In this document: one piece after another, positions 2,442 to 20,024 of the stretch
Layout: each line of letters opens with the position of its first letter
Numbering within the stretch: position 1 is the stretch's first letter
Virus record (IMG/VR): IMGVR_UViG_3300017963_000860
Coordinates: 1-20,024 of that record
Strand: one strand, 5' to 3'
DNA: 20,024 nt
Source of the DNA: a virus
Position numbers and translations under genes: made by a program
Notes under the pieces: model-generated
What the model saw: only the letters and a program-made list of their open reading frames with translations
Database searches by the model: none
Told to the model about the DNA's origin: nothing

Positions 2442-3302
2442 ATGCAACACCATATCTTCGGCACCGATCGACCGTTACTGTATGACGTCGAGCCATGGAA
2501 TCGGCTCGGCTTTGCGGTGCCAAACTTCGGCGACAACCTTGGTACGCTCAGCCAGCCGCTATGGGGCCTGGCCGACGAAGTGTCCCGCGCCCAGTTGTTC
2601 ATTATGTGTCATATCGACGCACAGCGGACACAGCCGCCGTCGGTCAATACGATCGAACGGGTTGGCAAGGTGTGCAATCGCGTTCGCGACGTACTGGCCG
2701 CACGCAAGAAGGGTGACGCCGATTTACGCGTCGAGGAAGGGCACGCGTCCGCGGACCTGATCCCCTGGCATATTCACCCGGTTCCGTTTTTCAATTCGTC
2801 GATTGTGCGAAATCGCTGGCTGAAAGAGTACAACCGGTTGTGCATGATTGCGCTCACGAACTTCTACCAACACAGCGACAACAACCTGGCGTTGACGGTT
2901 ACCGCAAAATTTGCGGCAGACGTTTATGTCTATTTCCGAGAAATCAAATACCTGGTCGGCGTCGAATTACTGGGGCTCGACCCGGACCAGGTTGGCGAGG
3001 AATCGTTCAAGTTCAGCGCGGAACACTATTCGCAATACAACCCCTCGCTGTTCACCCTGAACTACGAGGCGCTGGATACGCCGGGGTCAATCCAGTCTCG
3101 CGCGACAGAGGACGACATCCGGCCACTCTTCGAGGGTATCCCCGCGCCGCTGATCGTGCCGAACCTGAAGCAGTATCCCGTCGGTGAGGACCTACTAGGC
3201 TGGAGCGGTGCACCGCTACCCGAAAACGCGAGCGCACCAGGCACCGCCGACGGCTCGGCCATTGCGCCGGCAGGGCGGACGATCGGCGAACCGCAAGTCT
3301 AG
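2442..3302 (+). CDS. Hypothetical phage-associated protein, 286 residues
   Basis: The start at ATG 2442 is chosen because GGGAGAT lies about eight nt upstream; a TTG at 2403 would add 13 residues without a comparable site. The protein is rich in aromatic residues and looks like a single compact domain over about 1-240 (segments such as FFNSSIVRNRWLKEYNRL and AADVYVYFREIKYLVG are helix-like). The last 50 or so residues are low-complexity Ala/Pro/Gly (LPENASAPGTADGSAIAPAG) and probably disordered. I know no family match. Its good codon use and intact length suggest a real, maintained gene. Lying just upstream of the DUF1353 and terminase genes, it belongs to the phage transcript, but its role cannot be read from sequence. 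Confidence 0.7.
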   Translation: MQHHIFGTDRPLLYDVEPWNRLGFAVPNFGDNLGTLSQPLWGLADEVSRAQLFIMCHIDAQRTQPPSVNTIERVGKVCNRVRDVLAARKKGDADLRVEEGHASADLIPWHIHPVPFFNSSIVRNRWLKEYNRLCMIALTNFYQHSDNNLALTVTAKFAADVYVYFREIKYLVGVELLGLDPDQVGEESFKFSAEHYSQYNPSLFTLNYEALDTPGSIQSRATEDDIRPLFEGIPAPLIVPNLKQYPVGEDLLGWSGAPLPENASAPGTADGSAIAPAGRTIGEPQV

Positions 3303-4243: not shown

Positions 4244-4752
4244 GCTGTAGGCTGAAGGCTGCAAGGAAGAAGACACCGGCCGCGAAGAAGAAGCCGGCGG
4301 CCAGGAAGCGGGCGACACCCAAGAAAAGGACGGTACGGAAGAAGTCGCCGGCAAAGAAGAAGTCGGCAACCTCAAAGAAGAAGCTGGACGGTTTACCGGT
4401 GGAATTATCCGGCGAGGCGGCGCGGCGGGTGTGGCGTGAAACCGAACCGCTGCTGCGCGATCGGTTGAACCTGCTCGATATTGACCATCGGATTCTTGTG
4501 CTGTACTGCAACTGCTGGCAACTCTTGACCGAGTGCCAGGAAGTACTCCGTACCGAAGGCCGATACGTGACCATGGAGGATACGGGGTATGTATCGCGGC
4601 ACCCGGCAGCGGTGGACGAGAAAAACACGATCGCCCAAATAAGACAGCTTGCCGGTGAGTTGGGCATGACACCAAAAGCCGGCCGACGGGTGAAAGTGCG
4701 AACCGGCGACGGGGACCAATTGAAAGCGTTCCTGGAAGGGAAGCCGGAGTGA
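4171..4752 (+). CDS. terS: Terminase small subunit, P27 family, with histone-like N-terminal tail
   Basis: The start is TTG 4171, supported by GGAGGA at 4158-4163. Residues about 78-193 match the P27/Terminase_4 type of small terminase: LDIDHRILVLYCNCWQLL, a following EVLRTEGRYV helix, HPAAVDEKNTIAQIRQLAGELGMTP and a basic VKV ending. This subunit recognises viral DNA and regulates the large-subunit motor. Unusual here is the first 73 residues: an almost pure Lys/Ala/Arg/Pro tail with units such as TPAAKKKPAARK and SPAKKKSATSKKK, closely resembling histone H1 or bacterial H1-like proteins. Part of that tail (AVGCRLKAARK) is encoded by a low-complexity DNA repeat at 4233-4266. The tail would bind DNA nonspecifically; that is inference. 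A host-type repeat separates this gene from terL. Confidence 0.8.
   Translation: MAKSVQKASRPKNATAKRAGKKAVGCRLKAARKKTPAAKKKPAARKRATPKKRTVRKKSPAKKKSATSKKKLDGLPVELSGEAARRVWRETEPLLRDRLNLLDIDHRILVLYCNCWQLLTECQEVLRTEGRYVTMEDTGYVSRHPAAVDEKNTIAQIRQLAGELGMTPKAGRRVKVRTGDGDQLKAFLEGKPE
4233..4266. repeat. GCTGTAG/GCTGAAG low-complexity repeat in the terS coding region
   Basis: Four imperfect copies of a seven-base unit (AGGCTGT, AGGCTGA, AGGCTGC) lie in frame in the lysine-rich tail of the terminase small subunit. The repeat is of the same general type as those at 3680, 16508 and 18557. It contributes the non-lysine island AVGCRLKA within the tail. Confidence 0.6.
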
Positions 4753-4760
4753 GATTTCAG

Positions 4761-4790
4761 GACACGGCTAACAAGTAAGCCGTGCCACAC
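4761..4790 (-). repeat. Half-unit of the GTGTGGCACGGC palindromic repeat
   Basis: In minus orientation this matches the left half of the elements at 8964, 13993 and 15420: GTGTGGCAC, then ACGGCT and AGCCGT arms around TACTTGTT. It lies between the terS stop (4752) and the terL start (4816) and lacks the second hairpin of the full unit. Confidence 0.75.
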
Positions 4791-8907: not shown

Positions 8908-8963
8908 CACACAAACCGGCTGATTTTGCACGAATACCCTACCCGCCACGAAACGAAAACCGG

Positions 8964-9039
8964 GTGTGGCACGGCTTACTTGTTAGCCGTGTCTTGGAAG
9001 CTGCAAGCAACACCTGCTTGCGAGCAAGCAGTGCCACAC
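8964..9039. repeat. Full-length three-stem palindromic repeat
   Basis: The outer arms GTGTGGCAC (8964-8972) and GTGCCACAC (9031-9039) pair. Inside are ACGGCT/AGCCGT (8971-8976 with 8985-8990) and a perfect CTGCTTGC-GA-GCAAGCAG hairpin (9014-9031). Arms share bases, so the stems compete or form a junction. Close copies are at 13993-14068 and 15420-15492, with a half copy at 4761-4790. It lies between the protease stop and the convergent ParB-like gene end, where it could act as a bidirectional terminator. Confidence 0.85.
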
Positions 9040-13984: not shown

Positions 13985-13992
13985 CGGGTGTG

Positions 13993-14068
13993 GTGTGGCA
14001 CGGCTTACTTGTTAGCCGTGTCTCCGGGCATCCCAAGCAACACTGCTTGCGAGCAAGCAGTGCCATAC
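13993..14068. repeat. Second full-length three-stem palindromic repeat
   Basis: Near-identical to 8964-9039: GTGTGGCAC (13993-14001), ACGGCT/AGCCGT arms around TACTTGTT, a central variable stretch, CTGCTTGC-GA-GCAAGCAG (14043-14060) and GTGCCATAC, with one substitution in the outer arm. It occupies the gap between the joining protein gene and the gp10-like gene. Only the central linker differs notably from the first copy. Confidence 0.85.
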
Positions 14069-14981: not shown

Positions 14982-15410
14982 ATGGCAGCCGCAACCAAAG
15001 ACACTGGGCACGGTGCGAGCATTACTTTTGGGACATCGGCGCTGGCCTTCCACTGGCGCAAGATCGGCAAGGTCACCAAGACTCGTGGCAAGCTGGATGA
15101 TTCCGATCTGTCCAACGCCAACGGCAACAAGACGTACGTGTTCGAGGACCTGGCGGAACCGGGTGAAGTCGAAGTTGAATTTCTGTTCGACCCAACGGCA
15201 GCCATTCCCGACATTCATGCCGCGGCCGAAACGATCACCATCACGGGTCCGGTCCCGCCAGGCGGTGCCAGCGCCGCGGATCTGGAAGGCACCGGCGCCG
15301 CGCTCGACGTGACGCAGAGTCCCGAATTCGCCAGCAATGGGCTGCAAGTAGGCACGCTCAAGATCGCCTTCGATGGCAAGACCGGCCCCACGCACACGCC
15401 CGCGGCGTAA
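14982..15410 (+). CDS. Major tail (tube) protein
   Basis: The 142-residue product has the best ribosome binding site in the structural region, AAGGAGG at 14968-14974 with seven-nt spacing, fitting a highly expressed structural protein. The sequence is beta-rich with a tube-type pattern: GASITFGTSALAFHWRKIGKVTKTRGKLDDSDLSN, then TYVFEDLAEPGEVEVEFLFDP, then a C-terminal strand pair NGLQVGTLKIAFDGKTGP. Similar short major tail proteins follow DUF3168 genes in many siphophages. The tube monomer would stack in hexameric rings around the tape measure. It is also alanine/glycine rich with few aromatics. Family assignment rests on position and pattern rather than on a specific motif. Confidence 0.75.
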   Translation: MAAATKDTGHGASITFGTSALAFHWRKIGKVTKTRGKLDDSDLSNANGNKTYVFEDLAEPGEVEVEFLFDPTAAIPDIHAAAETITITGPVPPGGASAADLEGTGAALDVTQSPEFASNGLQVGTLKIAFDGKTGPTHTPAA

Positions 15411-15419
15411 GCCAGGCCT

Positions 15420-15537
15420 GTGTGGCACGGCCTACTTGTTGGCCGTGTTTCAGGAAGGGAATCCCACTGCTTGCAAGCAAGCAGTGCCACACGATCAGGA
15501 AAGGAATCCCACTGCTTGCAAGCAAGCAGTGCCACAC
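15420..15537. repeat. Three-stem repeat with a tandem duplicated right half
   Basis: The full unit runs 15420-15492: GTGTGGCAC, ACGGCC/GGCCGT, then CTGCTTGC-AA-GCAAGCAG and GTGCCACAC. A 42-bp segment (15451-15492) is then repeated at 15496-15537 with one substitution (AAGGG versus AAAGG). It shares its arms with the repeats at 8964 and 13993 but has compensatory changes (GGCC for GGCT/AGCC) that preserve the stem. Confidence 0.85.
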
Positions 15538-15563: not shown

Positions 15564-15833
15564 ATGAGCGATGTGACTTTGAAAGACATCGGCCCCGCGG
15601 GCCGGCAGACGATTATGTTTCGTGGCCGGCAAGTGGGCTACTACCGCGAGGCCACGGGGCAAGTGCAGTTCGCTCCGCGACACATGGACAAAGACCAGCA
15701 GGCTCTGATCTTGTCCGAGTTGAGCCACTTGATCGGTGCCGAGCCAACCAGCGTCACCAATCCGCCGGAAGAGCCGCCGCCCGAGGAAGCCTACGAGGAA
15801 CTGGATCCCGACGATCTGACTGAGGCGGCGTAG
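15564..15833 (+). CDS. Small acidic tail-region protein, function unknown
   Basis: An 89-residue protein from ATG 15564 (AAGGAA seven nt upstream). The N-terminal part is basic and beta-like (FRGRQVGYYREATGQVQFAP), the middle is helical (DKDQQALILSELSHLIG), and the last 25 residues are acidic and proline-rich (PPEEPPPEEAYEELDPDD). It lies between the tail tube gene and the chaperone pair. It is not a recognised chaperone, and a role in tail assembly is inferred from position only. The in-frame sequence upstream of this ATG is the duplicated repeat. Confidence 0.65.
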   Translation: MSDVTLKDIGPAGRQTIMFRGRQVGYYREATGQVQFAPRHMDKDQQALILSELSHLIGAEPTSVTNPPEEPPPEEAYEELDPDDLTEAA

Positions 15834-16011: not shown

Positions 16012-16398
16012 ATGATCACTCGCGACCAACTGCTAGGCTCCTTCAAGCGGCGCTACACGTTCTCCGAAACGATCCTTGGCCCGCTGCGGATTCGCAACCT
16101 GACGGAAGAGGAAAAGGAAGAGTTCGAAGCCGGCAACCTCGACAAGGAAGGCAAGCTGAATTTGCGGGCCGTGCGCAAGCAACGCCGTAAGCTGTTCGTC
16201 GCCTTGGTCGTCGACGACGAAGGCAACCCGTTACTGCCCGAGCCCGGCGATGTGGAGCGGCTCAAGGGTGTGGATTCGGCGGTGACCGCGGCCGTATTCC
16301 GCGACGGCACCAAGCACTGCGGATTCACTGACGACGAGCTGGACGAGCTGGAAAAAAACTTCGCAGAAGCCACCGCCGACGATTCGCCTATCGATTAG
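16012..16398 (+). CDS. Tail assembly chaperone, unshifted product (gpG-like)
   Basis: The 128-residue protein is a tail assembly chaperone: it starts with an N-terminal beta part YTFSETILGPLRIRNLTEEEKEEFEAG, then a helical core NLRAVRKQRRKLFVALVVDDEGNPL, and ends DELDELEKNFAEATADDS. It is shaped like lambda gpG and HK97 gp13-type chaperones encoded just before the tape measure gene. It has no obvious ribosome binding site. Its end carries a -1 slippery heptamer (16353-16359) in the zero frame, inside the codons for EKN. Most ribosomes should stop at TAG 16396-16398 and a minority make the fusion product. Chaperones of this sort bind the tape measure during tail tube polymerisation and are not part of the virion. 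Confidence 0.85.
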   Translation: MITRDQLLGSFKRRYTFSETILGPLRIRNLTEEEKEEFEAGNLDKEGKLNLRAVRKQRRKLFVALVVDDEGNPLLPEPGDVERLKGVDSAVTAAVFRDGTKHCGFTDDELDELEKNFAEATADDSPID

Positions 16399-16604
16399 CG
16401 CTGCGGTGGGGAATCGCCGACGTAGAAACCTGGTTGTCCTCGATCGAGCCGCGCGTCATCGATGCGTGGCTCGCGTTTTATCGGGTCGAACCGGAAGCGT
16501 TTGAGGAAGGCCGGAGACCAGAGACCGGAGGCGGGAGGCGCAGCGGAACGCACATGGTCGACGCCAGCCAGGCCACCGACGTGTTCGCATCGATTGGGAG
16601 ATAG
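16012..16604 (+). CDS. Tail assembly chaperone fusion made by -1 frameshifting (gpGT-like)
   Basis: Reading shifts back one base at A AAA AAC (16353-16359) and continues at CTT 16359 in the -1 frame to TAG 16602-16604. The fusion has about 116 + 81 = 197 residues. The extra domain reads RLALRWGIADVETWLSSIEPRV followed by IDAWLAFYRVEPEAF, the familiar T-domain pattern (WGxxVxxWLxxMxxxExxxWxAFxxxEP) of phage tail chaperones. No start codon serves this domain before 16554, so separate initiation would leave it out. The tail end (EEGRRPETGGGRRSG) is encoded by a low-complexity repeat. The T domain recruits tube protein to the tape measure scaffold in the lambda model. Confidence 0.82.
16353..16416 (+). 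promoter_or_regulatory. Programmed -1 frameshift site with possible pseudoknot
   Basis: The heptamer A AAA AAC (16353-16359) is in the zero frame as GAA AAA AAC. Ten nt later stem 1 pairs CCACCGC (16370-16376) with GCGGTGG (16403-16409), seven bp. The loop sequence CGATTC (16380-16385) is complementary to GAATCG (16411-16416) right after stem 1, giving an H-type pseudoknot with 3-nt and 17-nt loops. Pairings are exact. The ten-nt spacer is slightly longer than the common 5-9 nt, so the pseudoknot is suggested rather than certain. Confidence 0.72.
16508..16540. repeat. GGAGACC/GGAGG low-complexity repeat in the T-domain tail
   Basis: Units AGGCCGGAGACCAGAGACC and GGAGGCGGGAGG repeat the pattern at 3680-3711. 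They are translated in the -1 frame fusion as part of a glycine/arginine-rich tail after the conserved T domain, and so probably arrived by insertion at a tolerant site. Confidence 0.65.
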
Positions 16605-16632: not shown

Positions 16633-19600
16633 ATGGCCACCATCGGAACACTTGCCGCCCGCATCCTCGCCGACGCTTCCGGCGTCCGCAGCGGCATGGG
16701 CATGACGCGGAACGAGCTGAAGATTACGCGTGGCGCCTTCCTGGCCACGCGCGACGACAGCCAAAAGCTGCAGATGGCCTTGGACCAACTGGCCAGTGCC
16801 AAAGACAAAGGCGCCTTTCGCGACGCTCAAGACTACGCCAAAGCCGTAGCGGCCGTGAAAGCAGAACTAGACCCGGCCACCGTCGCCCAGCGACAGCTTG
16901 ACGAGGCCATCGCAGCGACCCAAGCCAAGCTGCAGGACCAGATCGCCACGTTCGGCATAAGTGCCGACGAGATCGATCGTTATCGGTTGGAACAGCAAGG
17001 CGCCACGCAAGAGCAACTCGAATCCGTGGCCGCTCTGCAGCAACAGCGCGCCGCACTCGAAGCCGATGCCGCCGCCAAAGCCGCTGCTGCCCAGCAAGCT
17101 CAGCAGCTCGAATCATCCATCACACAGACCCGCAACGCGTTGTACGGCGAAATCGACGCCTTTGGCATGTCGGCCGACGAAATTAAGTTGCGAAACCTGG
17201 CACTCGAAGGCGCGGACGACGCCACGCTGGAAAACGTGCGGGCCCTGCAGCAGCAGCGCAACGCCCTGCAGGCAGACGCCGACGCCACGGCACGGGCCAA
17301 ACAAATCAAGGAGCAAGTGCGGACACCGACTGAGCGATACTCGCAAGAAATCCGCGAGCTGAACCAGCTATTGAAGTCCGGCAAGCTATCCCAGGACGTG
17401 CACGCGCGAGCGGTGCAACAGGCGGGGCAGCGATACGGCGTCGCCGGCAAGCAAGCCGGTGACCTGGCCGGCCGGGCAAAACAGGTCGGCCTATCCCACG
17501 CCGGCGCCATTCCCGGCGTCGGCGGGCTCACAAACGTACTGTCCGCCGGCCACCCGGCGTTGATCGCGGCGGCCGCGGCGATCGCCGGCGTGACGATCGC
17601 AGTCAAAGCCGGCAAGGCGGCGATCGACGCCTATGTGTCGGGCGTTGGTCGAGCGATCGACGAAATCGACAAGCTGGCCAAGACCTCGGCGAAACTGGGC
17701 ATGGCCACTGATAGTTTGCTGTCGCTGAGATACGCCGGCGAACAGACGGGCGTGGCCGCCAATACATTCGACATGGCCATCCAGCGCATGACGCGACGCG
17801 TGGCCGAAGCAGCCAAGGGGACCGGCGAGGCGAAAGACGCAATTAAAGAGCTGGGCCTGGACGCCAAGCGCCTGGCCGCCGGGACGCCCGACCAGGCGTT
17901 TCGGAAAATCGCCGGCGCTATGGGCGAAGTCGAACACCAGGGGCACCGCGTCCGGCTGGCTATGCGGCTGTTCGATTCCGAGGGCGTCGCGCTGGTCAAC
18001 ACGTTGGCACTAGGTGAGCAGGGCCTGGCTGACATGGAGGCCCGGGCGAAAGAGCTGGGGCTGACACTAAACAGTGTCGACGCGGCCGCCGTCGAGCAGA
18101 TGCGCGACACCTGGAACGACGTCGGCCAAGTGTTGCAAGGGATCGCGATGCAAGCCGCCGTCGACCTGGCCCCGACGCTGCAGGTCGCCGCGCAACAGAT
18201 TATCGAAATCCTCAAACCCGGCTCGCAAATCGGCGACACGATCCGATTTAGCCTAGCAGCGGTCCCACCGCTGCTAGGTAAGTGTATCGACCTCGCGCAA
18301 GTACTGATCGGGCTGTTCCAGGGCTGGCAGCACAAGGCGCAGGCAGCCGTCGGCGTATTCATCGAAGCCGCCGCGGCGGCCGACCGCGTTACAGCCGCGC
18401 TGGTACCGGGCCGCGAAGTCGACGACGGGCTGCAGGCTTTCGCCGACGACTTCCGCCGGCGCACCGAACTGCTTGGCAAAGAGGCCGGCGAGCGCATCAG
18501 CAAGGGCATGAACGGCGCCGCTCAAGCTGAAATCGAAAAACTACGCCGATCCGCCGCCTCCGGCCTCCAGGCTCCAGACTCCAGCCTGCCCGACACCGGC
18601 GCCACGGCCGCCGCGTCCGAGCAGTCGAAACTATTCGACGCACTGACCAAGACCACCGACGCCCTGGCCGAACAGATCGTCACAGCCGATATGAGCGCCG
18701 ACGAAATCCAGCGATGGCGACTGGCGATCGCCGGGGCAACGGAACAAACACTGGAATCTGTCGCCGCCATGCAACGCCAAGCGGAAGCGGCCAAGAAAGC
18801 GGCCGAGCTGCAGGCGAATATCAAGAAGACCACAGACGCACTTCGCGAGCAAGCGGCCACGGCCGGGATGTCTGCCGAACAAATCGAGCGGTGGCGACTG
18901 GCGATCGCCGGGGCAACGGAACAAACACTGGAATCTGTCGCCGCCATGCAACGCGAAGCGCAGGCGGCAAAGGATCTTGTCACACTGCGACAAGATTTGA
19001 TTGGCTTGCAGGATCGGAAGCGTTCGGCCGCGATCGACCGGGCTGAGTTGGAGATGGCCGAACGACTTCAACGGGTCGTCATTAACACCGGTCGCCAGTA
19101 TCCCGAGGGCGTCAGTGCGGCGGCCAAGCAGTACGGCGACGAGTTGCGGCGGCAATTGGAATTGCAGCAACTCATTCGCGACTTGCGGCGCGAAGGCCAT
19201 AGTGAGCAGTACATCCGCCACGCCGCCTCCATCATGCAACAGAATCACGCCCTCGACCGCCAGGCCGAATCGTTCGAGCGGCGGCGCAAATTGTTCGCGG
19301 AAGGTGCGAGCCTGGTAGAGAAACATCGACGGCCAGAGGAAGAGTACGCCGACACGCTGCGACGGCTGCGCGAGATGCTGGACGCCGGCGCCATCGACAT
19401 GCGCACCTTTGTGCGCGAGAAGCGAGAGGCGGCGTCCGAGTTGATGAAGCCGCTGGAATTGAAATTCGGAACGTCCGGAATCCAGGCCACAGCCAAGGGA
19501 TCGGCCGAAGCGCTCGCCAGGATTGATGAGCTACGGGCGCGTGGGAAAGCGTTGCAGGAAATCAAACTGATTGACAAAGCAGCAGCAGAGGAAAAACCGC

Positions 19601-20024
19601 TTCCCCCGCCACCAACGCCCACAATGCCCCAACCGCCGACACTTTCGACCCCACTCCCCGTCAGCGCGATCGGCGCCACGTACGCGCCGCTGCCCGAATC
19701 GCCCGCGGTGCCGGACATGGCGGCCACGATCGCCCCGAACTGGTCCGCACTGCCGGACACGCCGGAAATCGGCGATCTTGGCGCAGGGATCGAGGCCCTG
19801 TGGGGACCGCTGCCCGAATCGCCCGCGGTGCCGGACATGGCCGCGTCGATCGGCGCCGAGTACTCGCCACTGCCGGCCGCTCCGGAGCTGCCAAAGCTGG
19901 CCACCACGATCGCCCCGAACTGGTCCGCACTGCCGGACACGCCGGAAATCGGCGATCTTGGCGCAGGGATCGAGGCCCTGTGGGGACCGCTGCCCGAATC
20001 GCCCGCGGTGCCGGACATGGCCGC
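16633..20024 (+). CDS. Tail tape measure protein, incomplete at right edge
   Basis: The frame is open from ATG 16633 (or ATG 16627, six nt earlier in frame) to the window edge, at least 1130 residues. Parts, in order: a helical region with two copies of a GMSADEI...LESVAALQQQ repeat near residues 104 and 174; a hydrophobic stretch ALIAAAAAIAGVTIAV at about 309-324; the conserved tape measure core (about 335-516: GRAIDEIDKLAKTSAKLGMATDSLLSL...); two more copies of the helical repeat near 682 and 741; a charged coiled coil to about 985; then a Pro-rich 20-residue tandem repeat from about residue 1018. It sets tail length and sits in the tube lumen. GGTGG at 16622-16626 supports 16633. The 3' end is not in the window. 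Confidence 0.9.
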   Translation, partial: MATIGTLAARILADASGVRSGMGMTRNELKITRGAFLATRDDSQKLQMALDQLASAKDKGAFRDAQDYAKAVAAVKAELDPATVAQRQLDEAIAATQAKLQDQIATFGISADEIDRYRLEQQGATQEQLESVAALQQQRAALEADAAAKAAAAQQAQQLESSITQTRNALYGEIDAFGMSADEIKLRNLALEGADDATLENVRALQQQRNALQADADATARAKQIKEQVRTPTERYSQEIRELNQLLKSGKLSQDVHARAVQQAGQRYGVAGKQAGDLAGRAKQVGLSHAGAIPGVGGLTNVLSAGHPALIAAAAAIAGVTIAVKAGKAAIDAYVSGVGRAIDEIDKLAKTSAKLGMATDSLLSLRYAGEQTGVAANTFDMAIQRMTRRVAEAAKGTGEAKDAIKELGLDAKRLAAGTPDQAFRKIAGAMGEVEHQGHRVRLAMRLFDSEGVALVNTLALGEQGLADMEARAKELGLTLNSVDAAAVEQMRDTWNDVGQVLQGIAMQAAVDLAPTLQVAAQQIIEILKPGSQIGDTIRFSLAAVPPLLGKCIDLAQVLIGLFQGWQHKAQAAVGVFIEAAAAADRVTAALVPGREVDDGLQAFADDFRRRTELLGKEAGERISKGMNGAAQAEIEKLRRSAASGLQAPDSSLPDTGATAAASEQSKLFDALTKTTDALAEQIVTADMSADEIQRWRLAIAGATEQTLESVAAMQRQAEAAKKAAELQANIKKTTDALREQAATAGMSAEQIERWRLAIAGATEQTLESVAAMQREAQAAKDLVTLRQDLIGLQDRKRSAAIDRAELEMAERLQRVVINTGRQYPEGVSAAAKQYGDELRRQLELQQLIRDLRREGHSEQYIRHAASIMQQNHALDRQAESFERRRKLFAEGASLVEKHRRPEEEYADTLRRLREMLDAGAIDMRTFVREKREAASELMKPLELKFGTSGIQATAKGSAEALARIDELRARGKALQEIKLIDKAAAEEKPLPPPPTPTMPQPPTLSTPLPVSAIGATYAPLPESPAVPDMAATIAPNWSALPDTPEIGDLGAGIEALWGPLPESPAVPDMAASIGAEYSPLPAAPELPKLATTIAPNWSALPDTPEIGDLGAGIEALWGPLPESPAVPDMA
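18557..18588. repeat. Inverted copy of the GGAGAC/TGGAGG repeat inside the tape measure gene
   Basis: The sequence CTCCGGCCTCCAGGCTCCAG and its continuation are the reverse complement of the pattern at 3680-3711. It is translated in frame as SGLQAPDSSLPD, a loop-like interruption in helical sequence just after residue 640. This argues that the family can insert into coding DNA where the protein tolerates it. Confidence 0.65.
18715..18954 (+). repeat. 63-bp identical direct repeat in the tape measure gene
   Basis: The stretch 18715-18777 is identical to 18892-18954, a period of 177 bp (59 codons). It encodes WRLAIAGATEQTLESVAAMQ in both copies. The flanks differ (QAEAAKKAAELQ versus EAQAAKDLVTLR), so the copies have diverged outside the core or have been homogenised by gene conversion. 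Confidence 0.85.
19690..20024 (+). repeat. 60-bp/180-bp tandem repeat encoding Pro-rich 20-residue units
   Basis: Five full and one partial 20-residue units follow, of the general form LP-x2-P-x3-D-hydrophobic-x4-I-x3-aromatic-S/G. Examples are LPESPAVPDMAATIAPNWSA and LPDTPEIGDLGAGIEALWGP. A 180-bp higher-order unit repeats exactly: 19724-19844 equals 19904-20024 over 121 bases, and the window ends inside it. The array continues beyond the right edge. Confidence 0.88.

Follow-up and report, generated by a model that had tools for sequence, protein, structure and literature searches.

A very probable lambda-type G/GT tail assembly chaperone pair with a programmed -1 frameshift in an uncultivated tailed phage

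The viral DNA analysed in this work, a stretch of 20,024 nt hereafter called the window, very probably encodes a tail assembly chaperone pair of the lambda G/GT type, in which a programmed -1 frameshift joins a T domain to G. The assignment draws on what can be read by comparing sequences, namely the slippery site, the -1 arrangement conserved among relatives, the selection acting on T and the homology of G. Most ribosomes would translate the 128 codons of G up to the stop at 16396-16398, and a minority would move back by one nucleotide on A AAA AAC to yield a G-T fusion of 197 residues (we infer both the slipping and its rate). By analogy with lambda, G would bind the tape measure protein, recruitment of the major tail protein would fall to the T domain, and neither G nor GT would be expected in the finished virion. 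No specific downstream structure would be needed to explain the data in the lineage of the window.

The zero frame opens with the ATG at 16012, and its codons GAA AAA AAC, ending at 16359, place A AAA AAC in phase for a -1 slip, overlapping a run of seven consecutive A at 16352-16358. In the 11 window genes that were checked, other in-frame sites of the X XXY YYZ form are limited to AAACCCG and AAAGGGC, both in the portal gene. Starting at 16332 the -1 frame has no stop, and the reading after the slip, LRRSHRRRFAYRLALRWGIADVETWLSSIEPRVIDAWLAFYRVEPEAF..., proceeds for 81 residues up to the TAG at 16602-16604. Both the heptamer close to the end of G and the run of 81 codons to the stop had been pointed out in the first-pass annotation, and are confirmed. 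The same frame had been described as free of start codons, which holds in part: TTG 16434, ATG 16554 and GTG 16581 are in frame with T, but all reside inside or after the T core, and hence none could start the whole domain. The claim that simple start-to-stop gene calling misses the extension is accordingly upheld.

Table 1. Location of the features discussed in the text (nucleotide positions in the window)
Feature	Position	Strand	Basis or remark
Record	1-20,024		IMG/VR virus record IMGVR_UViG_3300017963_000860, 20,024 nt
Head genes			Terminase, portal, Clp-type protease, capsid
Head-tail adaptor and tail terminator			Also in the head and tail module
Probable major tail protein	14982..15410	+	phrog_158, E 0.0045 (weak), and position upstream of G
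Small gene, no family assigned	15564..15833	+	Between major tail protein and G
G-type tail assembly chaperone ORF	16012..16398	+	128 aa, zero frame; phrog_344, E 1.7e-11; fold match 2OB9
Slippery heptamer A AAA AAC	16353..16359	+	Sequence; same site in L023/L011, L002, L025, L035; GGGAAAA in L013-L022 group
-1 frame extension, T-like domain	16359..16604	+	81 codons plus stop TAG 16602-16604
Proposed pseudoknot stems	S1 16370-16376/16403-16409; S2 16380-16385/16411-16416	+	Exact here, not conserved
Tail tape measure protein	16633..20024	+	phrog_9483, E 6.2e-46; runs off the window end

The window holds the head and tail module of a tailed phage. The genes follow each other in the order major tail protein, small gene, G, T and tape measure, the last starting 28 bases past the T stop. 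The G-type chaperone gene is thus placed between the tape measure gene and the gene of the major tail protein, the latter being a weak call (Table 1). The small gene has no PHROG match; a gene is found between major tail protein and G also in L002, one of the relatives described below, and may possibly be a lineage-specific tail gene. Long internal repeats are a feature of the tape measure gene, where a 147-nt unit occurs twice with a spacing of 177, and a unit of about 178 nt as three partly overlapping copies, at 18649-18972 and 19667-20024.

Searching viral contigs with the G protein alone yielded no relative. Relatives, which belong to several lineages, were recovered from IMG/VR viral contigs by capsid and GT alignments. 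G matches the tail assembly chaperone family phrog_344 (E 1.7e-11). An AlphaFold model of G built from six relatives is of moderate confidence (pLDDT 71), and the best solved match of the predicted fold is HK97 gp13 (PDB 2OB9), with a TM score of about 0.5-0.65 and a probability of 1.00, at an E value of only 0.02; G and gp13 share 11-13% sequence identity. The conceptual G-T fusion matches phrog_25875, a tail assembly chaperone profile, and the match is co-linear across the G/T junction, fusion residues 27-168 aligning to profile positions 27-166 of 195.

The T domain of the window, taken alone, has no match in either Pfam or PHROG, and its assignment rests on the relatives and on position. 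In the relatives the T part matches the Pfam family PF06223, Phage_tail_T, with E values of 0.0004-0.0009; matches to this family and to Phage_TAC_1 are both below the curated cut-offs. In the T-only region, downstream of the stop of the zero frame, the window and its close relative L023 differ at 5, 1 and 16 sites at T-frame codon positions 1, 2 and 3, respectively. The concentration of differences at third positions argues that this frame is translated and kept by selection.

All relatives whose sequence could be read have T in the -1 frame relative to G, and a canonical heptamer marks the junction. AAAAAAC is found in four lineages, that of the window, including the closely related L023 and L011, and those of L002, L025 and L035, and GGGAAAA, read as G GGA AAA, in one lineage, the L013-L022 group. 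Homologues in which T is missing or in frame with G, or in which the heptamer is absent, were looked for, and none occurs among the relatives read. The residue preceding the Lys-Asn pair encoded by AAA AAC varies (E, R, E, A, V), and the third base of its codon is A every time; in the genes of the window A occupies 14% of third codon positions. The constancy of this base despite the changing residue indicates that the heptamer itself is conserved; an A-ending codon before AAA AAC would be the expected trace of selection acting on the heptamer and not on the protein. Homology, gene order and the heptamer and -1 arrangement conserved in relatives all support the earlier proposal of a hidden T domain reached by frameshifting.

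It had also been proposed that the slip is stimulated by a specific H-type pseudoknot, which now appears improbable. As complementarities the two stems are real: S1 and S2 are exact Watson-Crick pairings ordered as in an H-type knot, and S1 begins 10 nt after the heptamer. Exact knots of 7 plus 6 bp with the same topology were found in only 0.37% of sequences obtained by dinucleotide shuffling of the stretch, and in 0.32% of segments of 71 nt taken from the window, figures to be read bearing in mind that stem lengths were picked after seeing the sequence. Moreover, S1 keeps six of its seven pairs, one as G-U, when aligned to the nearest relative, L011. Yet, when window, L011 and L002 are compared in an ungapped alignment, both stems break in these two nearest relatives, five of the 13 pairs being broken in at least one of them, with no compensatory change, and shuffled partners pair at least as well as the observed ones. 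Comparison across homologous elements, as recommended in the first-pass annotation, thus finds the heptamer kept, but neither conservation nor covariation of the stems. A consensus folding of three relatives includes mostly invariant pairs, with a positive covariation term, and gives no ground for proposing a conserved structure.

The geometry is also against the knot. In H-type pseudoknots the junction is usually short and the third loop long, and the layout is reversed here. The loops measure 3, 17 and 1 nt, and are poorly suited to a stacked H-type knot; 17 bases separate the inner arms of the stems, and the single base linking S1 to the 3' arm of S2 must span the 7 bp of S1. A nested hairpin predicted at 16374-16422 (-19.0 kcal/mol) competes with the knot. 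Local nested folding downstream of the site is unremarkable (z -0.50 against dinucleotide shuffles). The 71 bases following the site are not more stably folded than synonymous recodings of T (P 0.78), in an approximate test which scores nested folding only, leaves pseudoknots aside and lets the zero-frame tail vary. The pseudoknot is therefore not supported: its stems are not conserved, its loops fit the type poorly, and downstream nested folding does not exceed what the T peptide predicts.

Strong hairpins starting about 6-8 bases after the heptamer have been predicted in two other lineages. One is found in L035 (8001-8080), and exceeds the prediction based on the T peptide (P 0.001), the other in L016, a member of the GGGAAAA group (2921-3000; P 0.004). 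Both are likely frameshift stimulators in their own lineages, and a stimulator may be present in each without being shared. One may tentatively suppose, with rather low confidence, that within one G/GT family the site has been fixed while the stimulator has been replaced, with hairpins in the GGGAAAA group and in L035, and none evident in the lineage of the window, where another element, or the host tRNAs, would set the ratio.

A GT message might alternatively be made by transcriptional slippage on the A run, and not by slipping ribosomes, since one A added to the seven would bring T into frame. This seems very unlikely, because the run shrinks from seven residues in the window and L002 to six in L023, L025 and L035, and to four in the relatives with GGGAAAA, yet all of them retain the X XXY YYZ form; transcriptional slippage usually requires longer runs. 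That T is a relic, or is separately translated from one of the three in-frame start codons mentioned above, is hardly credible, as internal starts would leave out the conserved N-terminal portion of the domain, selection acts on the T frame, and the heptamer is kept at the junction in all relatives read.

Programmed frameshifting at A AAA AAC, the reading preferred here, makes the window a further member of the G/GT class. The mechanism is standard and common in tailed phages, being conserved in lambda and other dsDNA tailed phages (reviewed in PMC5009743, where Xu et al. 2004 is cited). As in lambda gpG/gpGT, the window genes lie between those of the major tail protein and the tape measure protein, G ends at a normal stop and bears a -1 heptamer close to its end, and the T domain is read in the -1 frame. 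Window and lambda differ in the heptamer, A AAA AAC versus G GGA AAG, in the small extra gene preceding G, and in sequences, which are far diverged. According to the same review, ribosomes of E. coli shift less on A AAA AAC than on A AAA AAG, which counts against the frameshift reading. A_AAA_AAC has been reported, as cited in PMC5009743, as the g-t shift site of the haloarchaeal virus HCTV-2; the likeness concerns the shift site, and the HCTV-2 host is an archaeon. The initial presentation of the case as a less familiar one was therefore overstated. GeneTack work lists A_AAA_AAC among the consensus heptamers, and 6-7% shifting was measured in two tail chaperone genes (PMC3711429). In the set used to train PRFect, 2,476 phage genomes had a joined frameshift gene, which in 2,397 was a tail assembly chaperone (PMC10885494). 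Among 50,697 annotated phages, the only match to the window GT is to genes 18/19 of Rhodococcus phage Jflix2, which precede the tape measure gene and are annotated as a tail assembly chaperone that also has a longer, joined version; the similarity is weak (28.6% identity, E 0.03) and covers the G part, the T part being unmatched.

The description of the window as a probable planctomycete element did not find confirmation, as two scans, with capsid and GT alignments, found no relative in cellular genomes. Plasmid matches to the capsid were considered as a host clue and rejected, being remote and uninformative on the host. The window additionally contains palindromic elements of about 77 bases dispersed between genes, at 8963-9039, 13992-14068 and 15419-15537, and a partial copy near 4748-4790. 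The elements are bounded by GTGTGGCAC and GTGCCACAC, and contain two hairpins each; in the copy at 15419 the second half is repeated. Similar but diverged GGCACGGC...GCCGTGCC palindromes lie between genes in L002, and no exact match to the pattern was found in other viral contigs. These palindromes may represent mobile repeats that also occur in the host.

The 81-codon T extension escapes gene callers which depend on start codons, and the annotation of the window has been corrected to include it. A small family of uncultivated phages is thereby added to the known G/GT frameshift class. As the slippery site is kept in these phages while downstream folding differs, the relatives make up a compact set in which one may ask whether a downstream structure is needed.
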